Of a DNA stretch of 63,772 nt, positions 57,642 through 62,552 are shown in pieces; positions within the stretch are counted from its first letter, which is position 1; the number at the start of each line of letters is the position of its first letter. Location of the stretch: contig CAJFMB010000004.1 of NCBI GenBank assembly GCA_904390925.1, positions 1-63,772 of the forward strand. The letters run 5' to 3'. This stretch comes from an uncultured Subdoligranulum sp. Lineage in GTDB: Bacteria > Bacillota > Clostridia > Oscillospirales > Ruminococcaceae. A model generated the notes under the pieces. That model did not search any database, was not told the DNA's origin, and was given only the letters and a program-made list of their open reading frames with translations. The translations under genes were made by a program, and so were the position numbers.

Positions 57642-59579
57642 ATGAGACAACAGCAGGCAGCGGCATTGCCCGCCTACACCGGACGAGATCTGGGTGCATC
57701 CTGGCAGAAGGATCACACCACCTTCAAGCTGTGGGCACCCACGGCGGCGGTGGTGCGGATTCTTTTGTATGCCACCGGCTCGGATGATGAGGCAGGGGCG
57801 CAGCTGCTGGGAAGTGTGGTCATGCAGCCGTCCAGCCAGGGAATCTGGCAGGCGGTGGTGGAAGGCGACTGGCAGGGCACCTATTATGTCTATGCCCTGC
57901 AGTTTGCCGACACAGAAGGGGAGGTCCTGTCGGCCGATCCCTACGCCAAAGCCTGCGGCATCAACGGCCTGCGCAGTATGGTCATTGATATGGCCTGTGC
58001 TGTGCCGGACGGCTGGGCCGAGGACCGGCGCCCGGCCATTGCGCCCCATGCCCGGGCAATCTGGGAGACCCATGTGGCGGATTTTTCCGCAGACCCCAAA
58101 AGCGGTGTGCCGGAGGCCTGGCGGGGCAAATTTCTGGGCTTTACGGTGGAGGATACCTGCCTGGACGGAAACCCGAACAAACCCACCTGCCTGAATTATC
58201 TCAAGCGGCTGGGGGTCAGCCATGTGCAGCTCATGCCGATGTTTGACTTTGGTTCCACCGATGAAAGCGACCCGGATGGCTATAACTGGGGCTATGACCC
58301 GGTGAACTACAATGTGCCGGAGGGCGCCTATTCCACTGATCCCTGGCACGGCGAAGTGCGGGTCAGGGAATGCCGTGCCATGATCGCCGCCATTCACCGC
58401 GCAGGGCTGGGCGTGGTGATGGATGTGGTCTACAACCATACCTACCATGCTGACAGCTGGCTGGAACGCACAGTGCCGGGGTATTACTGCCGCCGCACAC
58501 CCGACGGCAGCCTGACCAACGGGTCCGGCTGCGGCTGTGACATGGCCAGCGAGCATGCCATGATGCGCAAGTATATTGTGGATTCCTGCTTGTTCTGGGC
58601 AAGGGAATACCATGTGGACGGCTTCCGGTTTGATCTGATGGCGCTCATTGACACCGAGACGATGAACGCAGTCCGCGCTGCGCTGGATGCCCTGCCGGGG
58701 GGAGAGAACATCCTGATGTACGGCGAACCCTGGATGGGCGGCGGCACCTGCATGGCGCCCGGCACCCGCCCGTCGGGCAAGGGCGCACTGGATGTGCTGG
58801 ACCCCCGGATCGGCTTTTTCTGCGACGGCACACGGGACGCCATCAAGGGCGGTGTATTCGACGCCAAAACCCCCGGCTATGTCAATGGCGGCCCTTATTA
58901 CGGCGTGCGGGTGCTCCACGCGGTGAATGCCTGGATGGACGGTGCCGACGGGTTCACTCCCCGGGCCCCCGGCCAGGTGGTGCAGTATGTTTCGGCCCAC
59001 GACAACTATACCCTGTGGGACAAGCTGAAACTGGTGGCCGGCCGGAAAAATTTTGCCGCCGCCGACGCGGATCTGCTGGCCCAGAACCGGATGGCAGCCG
59101 GAATCTATCTGACCTGCCATGGCCTGCCGTTCCTGCTTTCGGGCGAAGAGTTCGCCCGTACCAAACGGGGAAACCCCAACAGCTACCAGGGCCCCCTGAC
59201 GCTGAACCGGCTGGACTGGCAGCGCGCCTGGAAGTTCCGGTCGCTGGTGGAATATTACCGGGGCCTTTTGGACATCCGCAGCCATTATCCGGAATTGTCC
59301 GGGGAGGAAGGGGAGAGCGCTCCCATCATGCTGGCGCTGCCCGGCTGGCTGGTGGGCTTTGTGCTGGAAAAGTCGGACGGCAGCGGCGAGCTGGCGGTCT
59401 TTTACAACCCTGAACCCACCGGAATGCAAGTGGAACTGCCCGCGGGGGGCTGGCGGTATCTCAGCGACGGTACCACCGCCCAGGCAATGCCCTACGGCAA
59501 CCCCTGCACCGGCAGTGTGGAACTGGCCCCCACCAGTGTGACCATCCTGGTACGGCAGACGGAATCGGAGAAAACGTGA
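57642..59579 (+). CDS. Second type I pullulanase (GH13_14)
   Basis: A 645-residue paralogue of the operon pullulanase. An N-terminal CBM48-like region (TTFKLWAPTAAVVRILLY near 25-42) is followed by the hallmark YNWGYDPVNYNVPEGAY near 212. The catalytic set is in VDGFRFDLMALID near 328, ILMYGEPWMG near 358 and YVSAHDNYTLWDKL near 450. No signal peptide is seen, so it is cytoplasmic even though it lies beside a surface-protein module. ATG 57642 follows AGAGAGGAAC. The gene is monocistronic and is controlled by a promoter plus terminator leader, separate from the main alpha-glucan operon. Confidence 0.93.
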   Translation: MRQQQAAALPAYTGRDLGASWQKDHTTFKLWAPTAAVVRILLYATGSDDEAGAQLLGSVVMQPSSQGIWQAVVEGDWQGTYYVYALQFADTEGEVLSADPYAKACGINGLRSMVIDMACAVPDGWAEDRRPAIAPHARAIWETHVADFSADPKSGVPEAWRGKFLGFTVEDTCLDGNPNKPTCLNYLKRLGVSHVQLMPMFDFGSTDESDPDGYNWGYDPVNYNVPEGAYSTDPWHGEVRVRECRAMIAAIHRAGLGVVMDVVYNHTYHADSWLERTVPGYYCRRTPDGSLTNGSGCGCDMASEHAMMRKYIVDSCLFWAREYHVDGFRFDLMALIDTETMNAVRAALDALPGGENILMYGEPWMGGGTCMAPGTRPSGKGALDVLDPRIGFFCDGTRDAIKGGVFDAKTPGYVNGGPYYGVRVLHAVNAWMDGADGFTPRAPGQVVQYVSAHDNYTLWDKLKLVAGRKNFAAADADLLAQNRMAAGIYLTCHGLPFLLSGEEFARTKRGNPNSYQGPLTLNRLDWQRAWKFRSLVEYYRGLLDIRSHYPELSGEEGESAPIMLALPGWLVGFVLEKSDGSGELAVFYNPEPTGMQVELPAGGWRYLSDGTTAQAMPYGNPCTGSVELAPTSVTILVRQTESEKT

Positions 59580-59616: not shown

Positions 59617-59641
59617 CTTGTCTGCCGGGCACCGGGGGCGA

Positions 59642-59689
59642 GTCCCTTCCCGTCCGCTTCCGGAAACAACAAAAAAGAAGAGGTTCTAC
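59642..59689 (+). repeat. 48-bp direct repeat, copy 1
   Basis: Identical over 48 bp to 59816-59863. It starts GTCCCTTCCCGTCC and ends GAAGAGGTTCTAC. Just before it, CCGGGGGCGAGTCCCTTCC resembles the T-arm and 3' acceptor of the neighbouring tRNA-Arg in opposite orientation. Confidence 0.9.
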
Positions 59690-59751
59690 GTTTTTTGTAA
59701 AATCTCTTCGTGGATGTGTTGGGGTGCGCTGGCAGGAGACTCTCCCGCGCT

Positions 59752-59782: not shown

Positions 59783-59815
59783 CCGGGACGCAAAGCGGCC
59801 GGACGAGCTGTTCGG

Positions 59816-59863
59816 GTCCCTTCCCGTCCGCTTCCGGAAACAACAAAAAAGAAGAGGTTCTAC
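59816..59863 (+). repeat. 48-bp direct repeat, copy 2
   Basis: Exact second copy of 59642-59689. It includes the 5' part of the tRNA terminator hairpin and lies 21 bp from the tRNA 3' end. Confidence 0.9.
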
Positions 59864-59882
59864 ATTTCTGTAAAACCTCTTC
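59844..59882 (-). terminator. Intrinsic terminator of tRNA-Arg
   Basis: On the minus strand GAAGAGGTT pairs with AACCTCTTC, followed by TTTTTTG, directly after the tRNA 3' end. Confidence 0.88.
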
Positions 59883-59884
59883 TT

Positions 59885-59961
59885 TGGTGCGCTGGAAGGG
59901 ACTCGAACCCCCGGCCTTCTGATTCGTAGTCAGACACTCTATCCAGCTGAGCTACCAGCGC
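59885..59961 (-). tRNA. tRNA-Arg (anticodon ACG)
   Basis: A full 77-nt cloverleaf with encoded ACCA end. The acceptor stem is GCGCTGG / CCAGCGC. The D-arm contains AGCTCAGCTGGATAGAG, and the anticodon loop CTACGAA is closed by TCTGA / TCAGA, giving ACG. The T-arm is GGGTTCGAGTCCC-like. A34 is expected to be edited to inosine by TadA so that CGU, CGC and CGA are read. It has its own promoter and terminator. Confidence 0.97.
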
Positions 59962-60879: not shown

Positions 60880-60909
60880 TTGACTTGTCCCCCTGCGGGG
60901 TGGTACGAT
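60880..60909 (+). promoter_or_regulatory. Predicted promoter of mgtE
   Basis: TTGACT (60880-60885), 18-bp spacer, TACGAT (60904-60909). It gives a leader of about 275 nt. Confidence 0.6.
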
Positions 60910-60915
60910 AAAGCC

Positions 60916-61190
60916 GGAAGACGGTTGGTACATCCCGTCCCGGAATCAACAGAAAAAAAGGCAGGTGGTACGACGTGGAAAACCCCGGTAGTCCCAGTTA
61001 CCGATGTACACAAAATCATACGGCAGCCGCAGTTTTGGTCACAGACGCACGGCGACAGGCGGACGGGAATCCGGACAATCCCCGTCGGCCTGCTGTTTGG
61101 CGCGTCTGAAAGGACGCGCCTTTTTCTTTGCCCGGATGCAGTGCGGGCAAAGTATGCCCGGACACCGGCTGCCCCAAGGAGGTATGCCCG
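60916..61190 (+). ncRNA. Structured mgtE leader, candidate riboswitch of unrecognised class
   Basis: A long-range pair GTACATC / GATGTAC (near 60928-60934 and 61002-61009) encloses a G/C-rich domain. A second hairpin lies at 61056-61092. A terminator (61099-61125) lies before the ribosome binding site. CAGACGC (61042-61048) is perfectly complementary to GCGTCTG (61102-61108), the 5' arm and loop of that terminator, so antitermination is possible. It does not show the M-box conserved blocks. Confidence 0.6.
61099..61125 (+). terminator. Conditional terminator in the mgtE leader
   Basis: GGCGCGTC (61099-61106) / GACGCGCC (61113-61120) followed by TTTTTC, 65 bp before the mgtE start. Confidence 0.85.
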
Positions 61191-62552
61191 ATGTCTGATA
61201 CTGCAATCCAGACCCTGAAGAAGATGCTGGCCCATCTGGACGACGCCAAAAAATACCAGAGCCTGCGGGACGTGATGGAGACGCTGCCCGCACCCGACCT
61301 GGCCGCCGTGTTTGAGGATCTTCCGCCGGAAAAGATGCCGGTATTGTTCCGGTTGATGCCCAAGGACCTGGCCGCCGAAGTGTTTGCCGAGCTGACGCCG
61401 GAAACCCAGGAGACGCTGATCCAGGGCCTGTCCGACCGGGAACTGAAGCTGGTCATTGACGAACTGTTTGTGGACGACGCCACCGACCTGGTGGAGGAGA
61501 TGCCCGCCGGTGTGGTCAAGCGCATTCTGGCCCAGGCGTCGCCGGACACCCGTCAGATGATCAACGAGCTGCTGAAATATCCCGAGGACTCGGCCGGCGG
61601 CGTCATGACCACCGAGTTCATGGAGCTGCGCCCCGACATGACGGTGCGTCAGGCCATGGAGACCATCCGCACCAACGGCTTTGACAAGGAGACCATCAAC
61701 AACTGCTATGTCACCAAATCCGACCGTACGCTGGCGGGGGTGGTATCGCTGCGGACGCTGGTGCTGGCAAAGGACCCGGACCAGCAGATTGCCGGTCTGA
61801 TGGACGACAATGTGGTCAGCGTCAGCACCGACACCGACCGGGAGGATGTGTCCAAGCTGTTTGAAAAGTACGGCTTTCTGGCCATTCCGGTGGTGGACAA
61901 GGAAAAGCGCCTGGTGGGCATTGTGACGGTGGATGACGCTTTGACCATCATGCAGGACGAAATCAACGAGGATATCGCCAAGATGAACGCCATGGCCCCC
62001 ACCGACCGGCCCTATTTCCGCGCCAGCCTGTGGGATCTGTACAAGAGCCGCACCCCCTGGCTGCTGTTCCTGATGCTCAGCGCCACCTTTTCCAGCCTGG
62101 TCATCCGCAGCTACGAGAATGCCCTGGCTGCCGTCACGGTGCTGACCGCCTACATTCCCATGCTGACCGATACCGGCGGCAATGCGGGCAGCCAGACCAC
62201 CTCCACCGTCATCCGCGGTATGGCCACCGGCGACATCCGGCCGCATGACTTTTTCCGGGTCATCTGGCGGGAAATGCGGGTTTCGCTGCTCTGCGGCCTG
62301 ACGCTGGCGGTCTGCAACTTCGGCAAGCTGATGTGGCTGGACGGCGTGGGCGCCGGTGTGGCGCTGGCCGTCAGCCTGACGCTGGTCTGCACCGTGCTGC
62401 TCAGTCAGATGATCGGCAGTGTGCTGCCCATTGTGGCCCGCAAGGTGGGCATTGACCCGGCGGTGATGGCCTCGCCGCTGATCACCACCATCGTGGACAC
62501 CACCACGCTGCTGCTCTACTTCAATTTTGCCCGTCTGGTGCTGGGTCTCTGA
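61191..62552 (+). CDS. mgtE: Magnesium transporter MgtE
   Basis: A 453-residue Mg2+ channel/transporter with the standard layout. The N-terminal helical domain (residues about 15-130) has DLPPEKMPVLFRLMPKDLAAEVFAEL. Two CBS domains (about 135-255) carry DSAGGVMTTEFMEL and AIPVVDKEKRLVGIVTVDDA. A plug helix leads to a five-helix membrane domain from about 285, which includes VLTAYIPMLTDTGGNAGSQTTSTVIRGMATGDI near 320-350, the ion-pore signature. AAGGAGG precedes ATG 61191. It sits behind a structured leader with a conditional terminator. Confidence 0.95.
   Translation: MSDTAIQTLKKMLAHLDDAKKYQSLRDVMETLPAPDLAAVFEDLPPEKMPVLFRLMPKDLAAEVFAELTPETQETLIQGLSDRELKLVIDELFVDDATDLVEEMPAGVVKRILAQASPDTRQMINELLKYPEDSAGGVMTTEFMELRPDMTVRQAMETIRTNGFDKETINNCYVTKSDRTLAGVVSLRTLVLAKDPDQQIAGLMDDNVVSVSTDTDREDVSKLFEKYGFLAIPVVDKEKRLVGIVTVDDALTIMQDEINEDIAKMNAMAPTDRPYFRASLWDLYKSRTPWLLFLMLSATFSSLVIRSYENALAAVTVLTAYIPMLTDTGGNAGSQTTSTVIRGMATGDIRPHDFFRVIWREMRVSLLCGLTLAVCNFGKLMWLDGVGAGVALAVSLTLVCTVLLSQMIGSVLPIVARKVGIDPAVMASPLITTIVDTTTLLLYFNFARLVLGL

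Follow-up and report, generated by a model that had tools for sequence, protein, structure and literature searches.

We found that the leader of the mgtE gene in a 63,772-nucleotide stretch of DNA from an uncultured Subdoligranulum sp. (hereafter the window) probably acts as a ribosome-mediated attenuator, in which the start of a short upstream open reading frame (uORF) would serve as a gauge of Mg2+. The points that speak for an attenuator of this kind are the exchange of start codons among related uORFs, the detection of such uORFs by a blind rule, the frame-specific use of the codons CGA and AGT, and the failure of the signature to exceed chance before corA. A sequence-only reading of the same leader had proposed a new riboswitch for Mg2+ or another metal. 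From that proposal we retain a cis-acting mgtE attenuator with a probable link to Mg2+, but not the aptamer, whose closing helix is chance-like and which has no covarying core. The conserved uORF, which spans most of the region concerned, was absent from that reading.

The mgtE leader of the window

The window mgtE gene is preceded by a leader of about 275 nt, in and around which we mapped the following elements. Type B denotes a set of 20 Gemmiger leaders described below.

60880..60909, + strand: promoter-like site by sequence motif (TTGACT, an 18-nt spacer and TACGAT, with TG ahead of the second hexamer)
60920..60939, + strand: short 5' hairpin GACGG...CCGTC, in both the MFE and the centroid fold
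60959..60968, + strand: uORF Shine-Dalgarno AGGCAGGTGG, read from the letters; all 20 type-B relatives share GGTGG
60975..61109, + strand: uORF with a GTG start, 44 codons plus TGA, MENPGSPSYRCTQNHTAAAVLVTDARRQADGNPDNPRRPAVWRV; conserved in 31/31 Gemmiger leaders read
61002..61004, + strand: CGA arginine codon, uORF codon 10, proposed as the place where translation slows or aborts; 29/31 Gemmiger and 66/81 other uORFs use CGA for their first Arg
61022..61029, + strand: region 2, GGCAGCCG, whose complementarity to region 3 holds in 92.7% of cells across the window and six near relatives; GGCAGC invariant in the 20 type-B leaders
61042..61048, + strand: CAGACGC, the antiterminator arm of the sequence-only reading, with weak comparative support
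61099..61125, + strand: intrinsic terminator by terminator scoring (9-bp stem, -16.9 kcal/mol, then TTTTT)
61166..61173, + strand: region 3, CGGCTGCC, immediately 5' of the mgtE Shine-Dalgarno, from the letters and pairing counts
61176..61182, + strand: mgtE Shine-Dalgarno AAGGAGG, read from the letters
61191..62552, + strand: mgtE, with MgtE, MgtE_N and CBS Pfam matches

The uORF peptide opens MENPGSPSYRC. The terminator stem proper occupies 61099-61120 and is followed by TTTTTC, and 70 nt separate the end of the terminator from mgtE. Blocks resembling the promoter-like site (TTGAC...TGGTA) are visible 5' of the uORF in relatives.

Part of what had been said about this leader holds. The four short segments on which the riboswitch proposal was built lie where it had placed them (CAGACGC at 61042-61048, GCGTCTG at 61102-61108, GTACATC at 60928-60934 and GATGTAC at 61003-61009), the Pfam matches confirm that the downstream gene is mgtE, and the predicted terminator is a good one. 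The proposal also described the M-box as absent and the sensor class as unrecognised, and scanning for known riboswitch classes agrees with both statements: no Rfam family matched the leader at gathering scores, a tRNA was the only match in the window at that level, and at E up to 10 there were two weak, unrelated matches around the leader. The M-box (RF00380) was rejected for the window, where it found no match, and the same tool detected M-boxes in 6 of 60 related loci. A T-box leader was likewise rejected: the leader contains GGTGGTACGACG, which we take to resemble a T-box motif, and it gave no match to the Rfam T-box model.

The proposed antiterminator fared less clearly. CAGACGC and GCGTCTG are complementary as letters, but support for their pairing is weak. 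Among shuffled leaders, 6.5% contain a 7-mer perfectly complementary to the terminator arm, which makes the match mildly unusual; across the window and its six near relatives the pairing holds in 73.5% of cells, a value matched by 10 of 500 column shuffles, and sliding the partner by two columns gives 71.4%.

The presence of mgtE and of a terminator with a possible antiterminator would also suit an aptamer-type Mg2+ riboswitch. However, we consider such a riboswitch very unlikely and rejected it as the main reading, as the leader matches no known class, has no covarying core and is conserved in codon frame. The helix GTACATC/GATGTAC, said to close an aptamer-like domain, is chance-like: 49% of shuffles contain some 7-bp helix that closes 50-110 nt, and in the window and six near relatives this one is complete in 4 of 7 and shows no two-sided change. 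GTACATC itself lies within the loop of the short 5' hairpin, and the 3' arm of the helix consists of uORF codons. The covariation check, which like the scan for known classes had been suggested in the sequence-only reading, gave no support either, the consensus fold of 20 relatives containing 22 pairs of which none changed on both sides, and the fold of the whole leader is barely better than that of shuffles (z -1.59). A new aptamer-type riboswitch is therefore unsupported, and the leader is probably not a metal-binding RNA.

Two neighbouring features of the window were also recorded. A tRNA-Arg with anticodon ACG (59885-59961, - strand) lies about 1 kb from the uORF with its CGA Arg codon; tRNA-Arg(ACG), as inosine, is the reader of CGA. 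The closeness of the two may be a coincidence, because an Rfam scan found no tRNA near the mgtE leader in the Gemmiger loci L017 and L018. In addition, a 55-nt direct repeat (59639-59693 and 59813-59867, 96% alike, spaced 174 nt) separates the tRNA from the gene whose end is near 59579.

Conservation of the uORF and its codons

The nearest relatives of the window genome belong to Gemmiger (one of them is labelled Faecalibacterium sp.), and MgtE is present in 33 of the 35 genomes of the genus. Our Gemmiger set comprises 31 mgtE leaders; the second MgtE copy of G019 was left out, and L069, in which we judged the uORF start by eye to be the same, lies outside the set. All 31 leaders, otherwise very different from one another, contain a short uORF with its own Shine-Dalgarno-like GGTGGT. 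The start codons ATG, GTG and TTG interchange among these uORFs, and AGT and CCC are gained or lost as complete codons. The peptides begin M-[D/E]-x-[P/S/A], and most continue with Ser-Pro and then N/Y-R-C. Aspartate or glutamate at residue 2 in 31/31 Gemmiger peptides is partly built in, as the loose rule by which the uORFs were selected demands GA after the start; the blind rule described below recovers 26 of the 31. Proline is common in Gemmiger and less so in other clades.

Visible selection is confined to the first 8-15 residues, which hold an acidic residue at position 2, followed by Pro, Gly and Ser, and usually an Arg encoded by CGA. Whereas this N-terminus is conserved, the C-terminus is free and the length varies from 23 to 60 aa. 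A conserved short ORF adjoining a transporter gene might encode a functional micro-protein, such as a binding partner of MgtE, but we find this extremely improbable given that only the N-terminal residues are conserved, that length and C-terminus vary, and that in L085, L086 and L072 the ORF runs into mgtE. Seven uORF peptides tried against NCBIfam matched no profile, and Pfam gave no credible match.

Codon usage points to the same short segment. Within nucleotides 4-57 of the Gemmiger uORFs, CGA occurs 29 times in frame versus 2 and 4 times in the other frames, and AGT 61 times versus 4 and 3; in 81 other uORFs the corresponding counts are 79 versus 14 and 26 for CGA and 122 versus 2 and 11 for AGT. 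CGA is the first Arg codon in 95 of these 112 uORFs, at positions ranging from codon 4 to codon 17 in the 81 others, and makes up 5-6% of Arg codons within mgtE. Serine is encoded by AGT in 82% (Gemmiger) and 63% (other) of cases in the first 15 uORF codons and in 8% of cases in mgtE; codons 2-16 of mgtE contain CGA for 2 of 79 Arg and AGT for 6 of 99 Ser. A slight A/T-rich drift near the uORF start is seen for other residues (for example, GAA and ACA), but it fails to explain CGA because AGA stays at 9-13% of Arg in the uORFs. Residue 2 is not independent evidence in the 112-uORF table, since D/E at that position was part of the selection rule.

RNA pairing with the downstream leader was rejected as the cause of this bias by exchanging CGA for other CGN codons and AGT for AGC. 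Every other CGN codon paired less well than CGA in 2 of the 29 Gemmiger cases and in 18 of the 72 others. Compared with AGC, AGT gained pairing in 3 and lost it in 53 of the 60 Gemmiger cases, and elsewhere (n = 117) gains and losses numbered 47 each. Pairing thus provides no explanation of the codon bias. Judged from the sequence, the conservation is coding, in one frame, rather than that of an RNA structure. CGA is described as being among the slow Arg codons in a his-leader assay in Salmonella (PMC4046918).

The strong preference for CGA and AGT could also reflect a classical attenuator that responds to charged tRNA under Arg, Ser, Pro or Gly shortage and senses no Mg2+, and attenuators with runs of regulatory codons are described as common, the ilvB and cysS uORFs being examples. 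We consider this rather unlikely. Arg usually occurs once before the variable part, the content of Pro and Ser varies by clade with no residue run common to all, and the downstream genes are Mg2+ transporters, not amino-acid genes.

Candidate alternative RNA structures and a possible switch

If the uORF start is a Mg2+ gauge, ribosomes at low Mg2+ would slow or drop off there, as in intrinsic ribosome destabilisation, and the slow CGA codon would assist. The uORF segment GGCAGCCG, together with CAGACGC in the window species, would then be free to pair with CGGCTGCC and the terminator arm, respectively. This would prevent formation of the terminator or of the hairpin that, in most Gemmiger, also hides the mgtE start site, and MgtE would be made. 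At ample Mg2+, ribosomes would traverse and cover the segment, and the OFF structures would form. We infer that the uORF is translated, that the response is to Mg2+ and that the switch works in this direction.

The complementary segments that such a switch would use are clearest in the 20 type-B Gemmiger leaders. There, the mgtE Shine-Dalgarno lies within a hairpin GCTGCC...GGAGGCAGC, after which a U run extends to the ATG, and the hairpin can therefore act both as a terminator and as a mask of the start site. This pairing (3:4) is possible in 100% of cells, with no two-sided change. All 20 leaders carry GGCAGC, the complement of GCTGCC, in the uORF region, and this alternative pairing (2:3) is possible in 94.4% of cells, with 6 of its 8 pairs invariant and 3 cells with two-sided changes. 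Finally, the uORF Shine-Dalgarno can pair right after GGCAGC in 20/20 leaders (1:2), with no two-sided change. Because the arms are invariant, they leave the pairing itself unproven.

Regions 2 and 3 are also kept in the window and its six near relatives, but this group has a separate terminator, the one already noticed in the sequence-only reading, unlike the combined hairpin of type B. The window uORF stop (61107-61109) falls at the terminator loop; the stop lies inside the terminator in the window, L015, L016, L024 and L026 (5 of 6 scored) and beyond it in L014. The OFF step is therefore uncertain for the window group, in which a ribosome completing the uORF might block rather than allow termination. 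A terminator was scored in 28 of the 31 Gemmiger leaders; predicted pairing between upstream RNA and the 5' arm of that terminator reached p < 0.05 in none of the 28 and exceeded the mean of shuffles in 24.

The spacing of these elements is consistent with the attenuator. Counted from the first base of CGA, region 2 (GGCAGC, with variants GGCAAC and GACAGC) starts after 13-21 nt in 28 of 29 leaders and after 27 nt in the remaining one, L014. Set against the size of a ribosome footprint, this distance fits a ribosome with CGA in its A site and region 2 just free.

Duplex folding of the uORF start against the rest of the leader gave 27 of 103 leaders at z below -2.33 (mean z -1.05), with no common design, and was therefore kept out of the main evidence. 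Outside Gemmiger, leaders such as L160 to L162 have uORF codons (GGAAGTAG, CCCCGAAG) that could base-pair farther downstream, with ACTTCC or TTCGGGG close to the start site of mgtE, which is a different arrangement of the same idea.

Spread among Mg2+ transporters and likeness to known leader peptides

A blind rule, which asks for an M-[D/E] uORF in the leader and takes the mean of 20 shuffles as expectation, recovered such uORFs well beyond Gemmiger. It was satisfied by 26 of 31 Gemmiger mgtE leaders (shuffle mean 2.5; 24 with CGA, shuffle mean 0.25), 83 of 118 other, mostly Oscillospirales leaders (9.3; 73 with CGA, 3.1), 17 of 28 in the class sample (3.2; 11 with CGA, 0.15) and 18 of 26 in the phylum-wide sample (2.6; 4 with CGA, 0.45), where CGA is thus rare. 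Before mgtA, 8 of 9 leaders satisfied it (1.4), 6 of them with CGA. Before corA, the counts were not beyond chance (4 of 27 versus 2.7; one with CGA, L238, versus 0.55). The rule misses 5 of the 31 Gemmiger and 35 of the 118 other leaders, which counts against the attenuator reading.

The four mgtE sets are nested, and the leaders are the fetched part of the search matches. The 118-leader set combines the family and order searches plus L062, L063, L066 and L072 (the last being Oliverpabstia, a genus outside the order Oscillospirales), with leaders below 350 nt and L069 excluded and with second gene copies and species without any such leader included. L213 in the 28-leader class set is the same gene as L153 in the order set, and 26 of the 28 phylum leaders were long enough. 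For corA, 30 of the listed places were fetched and 27 leaders were usable; corA had been chosen as a second transporter test and was used as a control because that test came out negative.

An independent ranking, in which short ORFs were ordered by Shine-Dalgarno alone and residue 2 was then scored, gave a similar picture. D/E was found at residue 2 in 15 of 21 Gemmiger, 65 of 74 order, 13 of 18 class and 8 of 15 phylum leaders with such an ORF, and in 0 of 14 before corA. Typical uORF starts are MDAGSSSGTKPG, MDICGRSTK, MEPVGRS and MDTGPERR, and others are MDAGSSSGTNPDGR, MDADPGS, MDPDS and METDPGRS. A pattern scan of 148 family genomes returned eight matches: three before canonical mgtE, one before a divergent MgtE (MDGSSCSRS), one before a P-type ATPase (MDPDRS) and three chance-like. 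As a reversed control pattern also gave eight matches in the 148 genomes, the count is uninformative and only the neighbours of the matches carry information. The best NCBIfam models for the ATPase and the divergent MgtE are the Mg2+ P-type ATPase and mgtE, below whole-protein cut-offs, both proteins being cut by the locus end. The nine mgtA leaders come from nine Mg2+ P-type ATPases found in 147 order genomes at the cut-off applied. In L234, the ninth, the gene start had been called wrongly by the automatic method, and by eye it has a shorter uORF (MDSDCSP), with a TGA stop exactly where the related L229 carries CGA; the L234 mgtA frame is also interrupted. Overall, and as far as sequence can establish it, a conserved coding uORF is attached to Mg2+ importers in many Bacillota.

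This attachment bears on a further alternative, namely that the uORF senses some other translation stress, such as a drug in the manner of erm leaders, with MgtE as part of the response. Ribosome-stalling leader peptides are described as serving this purpose in Gram-positive bacteria, but the signature is tied to two Mg2+ importer families, which a general drug response would not need, and we regard this explanation as highly improbable.

Mg2+ sensing by abortive translation has been described in enteric bacteria for MgtL, CorL and MgtQ (PMC11282234, PMC11552253, PMC8092293). The leaders studied here share with these attenuators a Mg2+ transporter leader that carries a short ORF with its own Shine-Dalgarno, and early acidic and Pro residues in the peptide, the acidic residue 2 being partly built into our selection. 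Translation of mgtL in E. coli and Salmonella is described as ending in drop-off at low Mg2+, which turns mgtA on via a Rho-dependent terminator (PMC11282234). In the E. coli K-12 record, mgtL encodes Glu2, Pro3, Asp4 and a Pro-Arg with CGA, and it thus resembles our uORFs in its acidic residue 2, its prolines and its Pro-Arg from CGA. It differs in phylum and gene family, in its use of Rho, where the Bacillota leaders have intrinsic terminators and a start-site hairpin, and in being richer in acidic and Pro residues than the peptide of the window; acidic residues are sparse in Gemmiger peptides (usually one, early), which counts against an MgtL-like reading.

CorL of E. coli and Salmonella is a UUG-started uORF that also acts through Rho, with translation inverse to corA expression and an N-terminus reported as conserved (PMC11552253). 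We found an ORF before E. coli K-12 corA (ysgD; L191, 1219-1275) whose record has no CorL label. From its place and UUG start it is probably CorL, although the name ysgD is absent from the text of PMC11552253. It begins TTG GAC ACA CCC AGT AGA, and the uORF of Gemmiger L041 begins TTG GAT ACC CCC AGT AGA, so that both encode MDTPSR. The likeness to L041 is limited to these six residues, and the seven peptides tried in profile searches gave no sign of full-length homology to MgtL or CorL. CorL residues 2-6 are matched at 5/5 by one and at 4/5 by nine of the 112 uORFs, and at 3 and 32, respectively, of 67,129 start codons in all loci gathered, uORFs included.

The closest layout is that of MgtQ before Salmonella mgtB, in which translation of mgtB is described as requiring Asp2 and Glu5 and as depending on structures 1:2 and 3:4 versus 2:3 (PMC8092293). 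Type-B Gemmiger leaders have the same layout, with the transporter start site masked in 3:4. MgtQ, however, is intra-operon, purely translational and 8 codons long, whereas the Gemmiger elements lie in a 5' leader, have a U run after the mask and contain longer ORFs.

Two RNA elements also precede mgtE genes. The M-box exerts Mg2+ control over mgtE leaders and, unlike in the window, stands upstream of an acidic uORF with CGA in L075, L076 and L085, where two Mg2+ sensors may act one after the other; an M-box with no convincing uORF is found in L077, L133 and L147. A THF riboswitch near the mgtE locus of L080 (3638-3738, - strand) is unrelated. The mgtE motif of Thioalkalivibrio is likewise a conserved element before mgtE, but it is described as a structured RNA restricted to that genus, with the start site in stem P4, and is listed as a riboswitch candidate rather than a uORF (PMC11109978).

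Among the matches listed in our literature search, which covered titles, the starts of abstracts and text passages, with most subscription papers and all supplements outside its scope, we found no leader peptide before mgtE in Bacillota, and an earlier report is possible. The main text of a 2021 survey of noncoding RNAs, as far as its passages were covered, mentions neither mgtE nor magnesium (PMC8632094).

We put at about even the broader proposal that bacteria widely gauge Mg2+ by translating an unstable leader-peptide start. In this view, MgtL, CorL, MgtQ and the Bacillota mgtE and mgtA uORFs would form one functional class, in which early acidic residues, in many lineages with a slow CGA, make elongation fail at low Mg2+, alongside or instead of the M-box. 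If the attenuator reading is true, the ribosome itself would be the Mg2+ sensor in a large part of Bacillota, gut commensals included, for both MgtE and the P-type Mg2+ ATPase and, in a few species, in series with the M-box. That would also point to a role for one synonymous codon, CGA, that is directly testable, and well over a hundred natural uORF variants are available from which to learn which nascent chains destabilise ribosomes.
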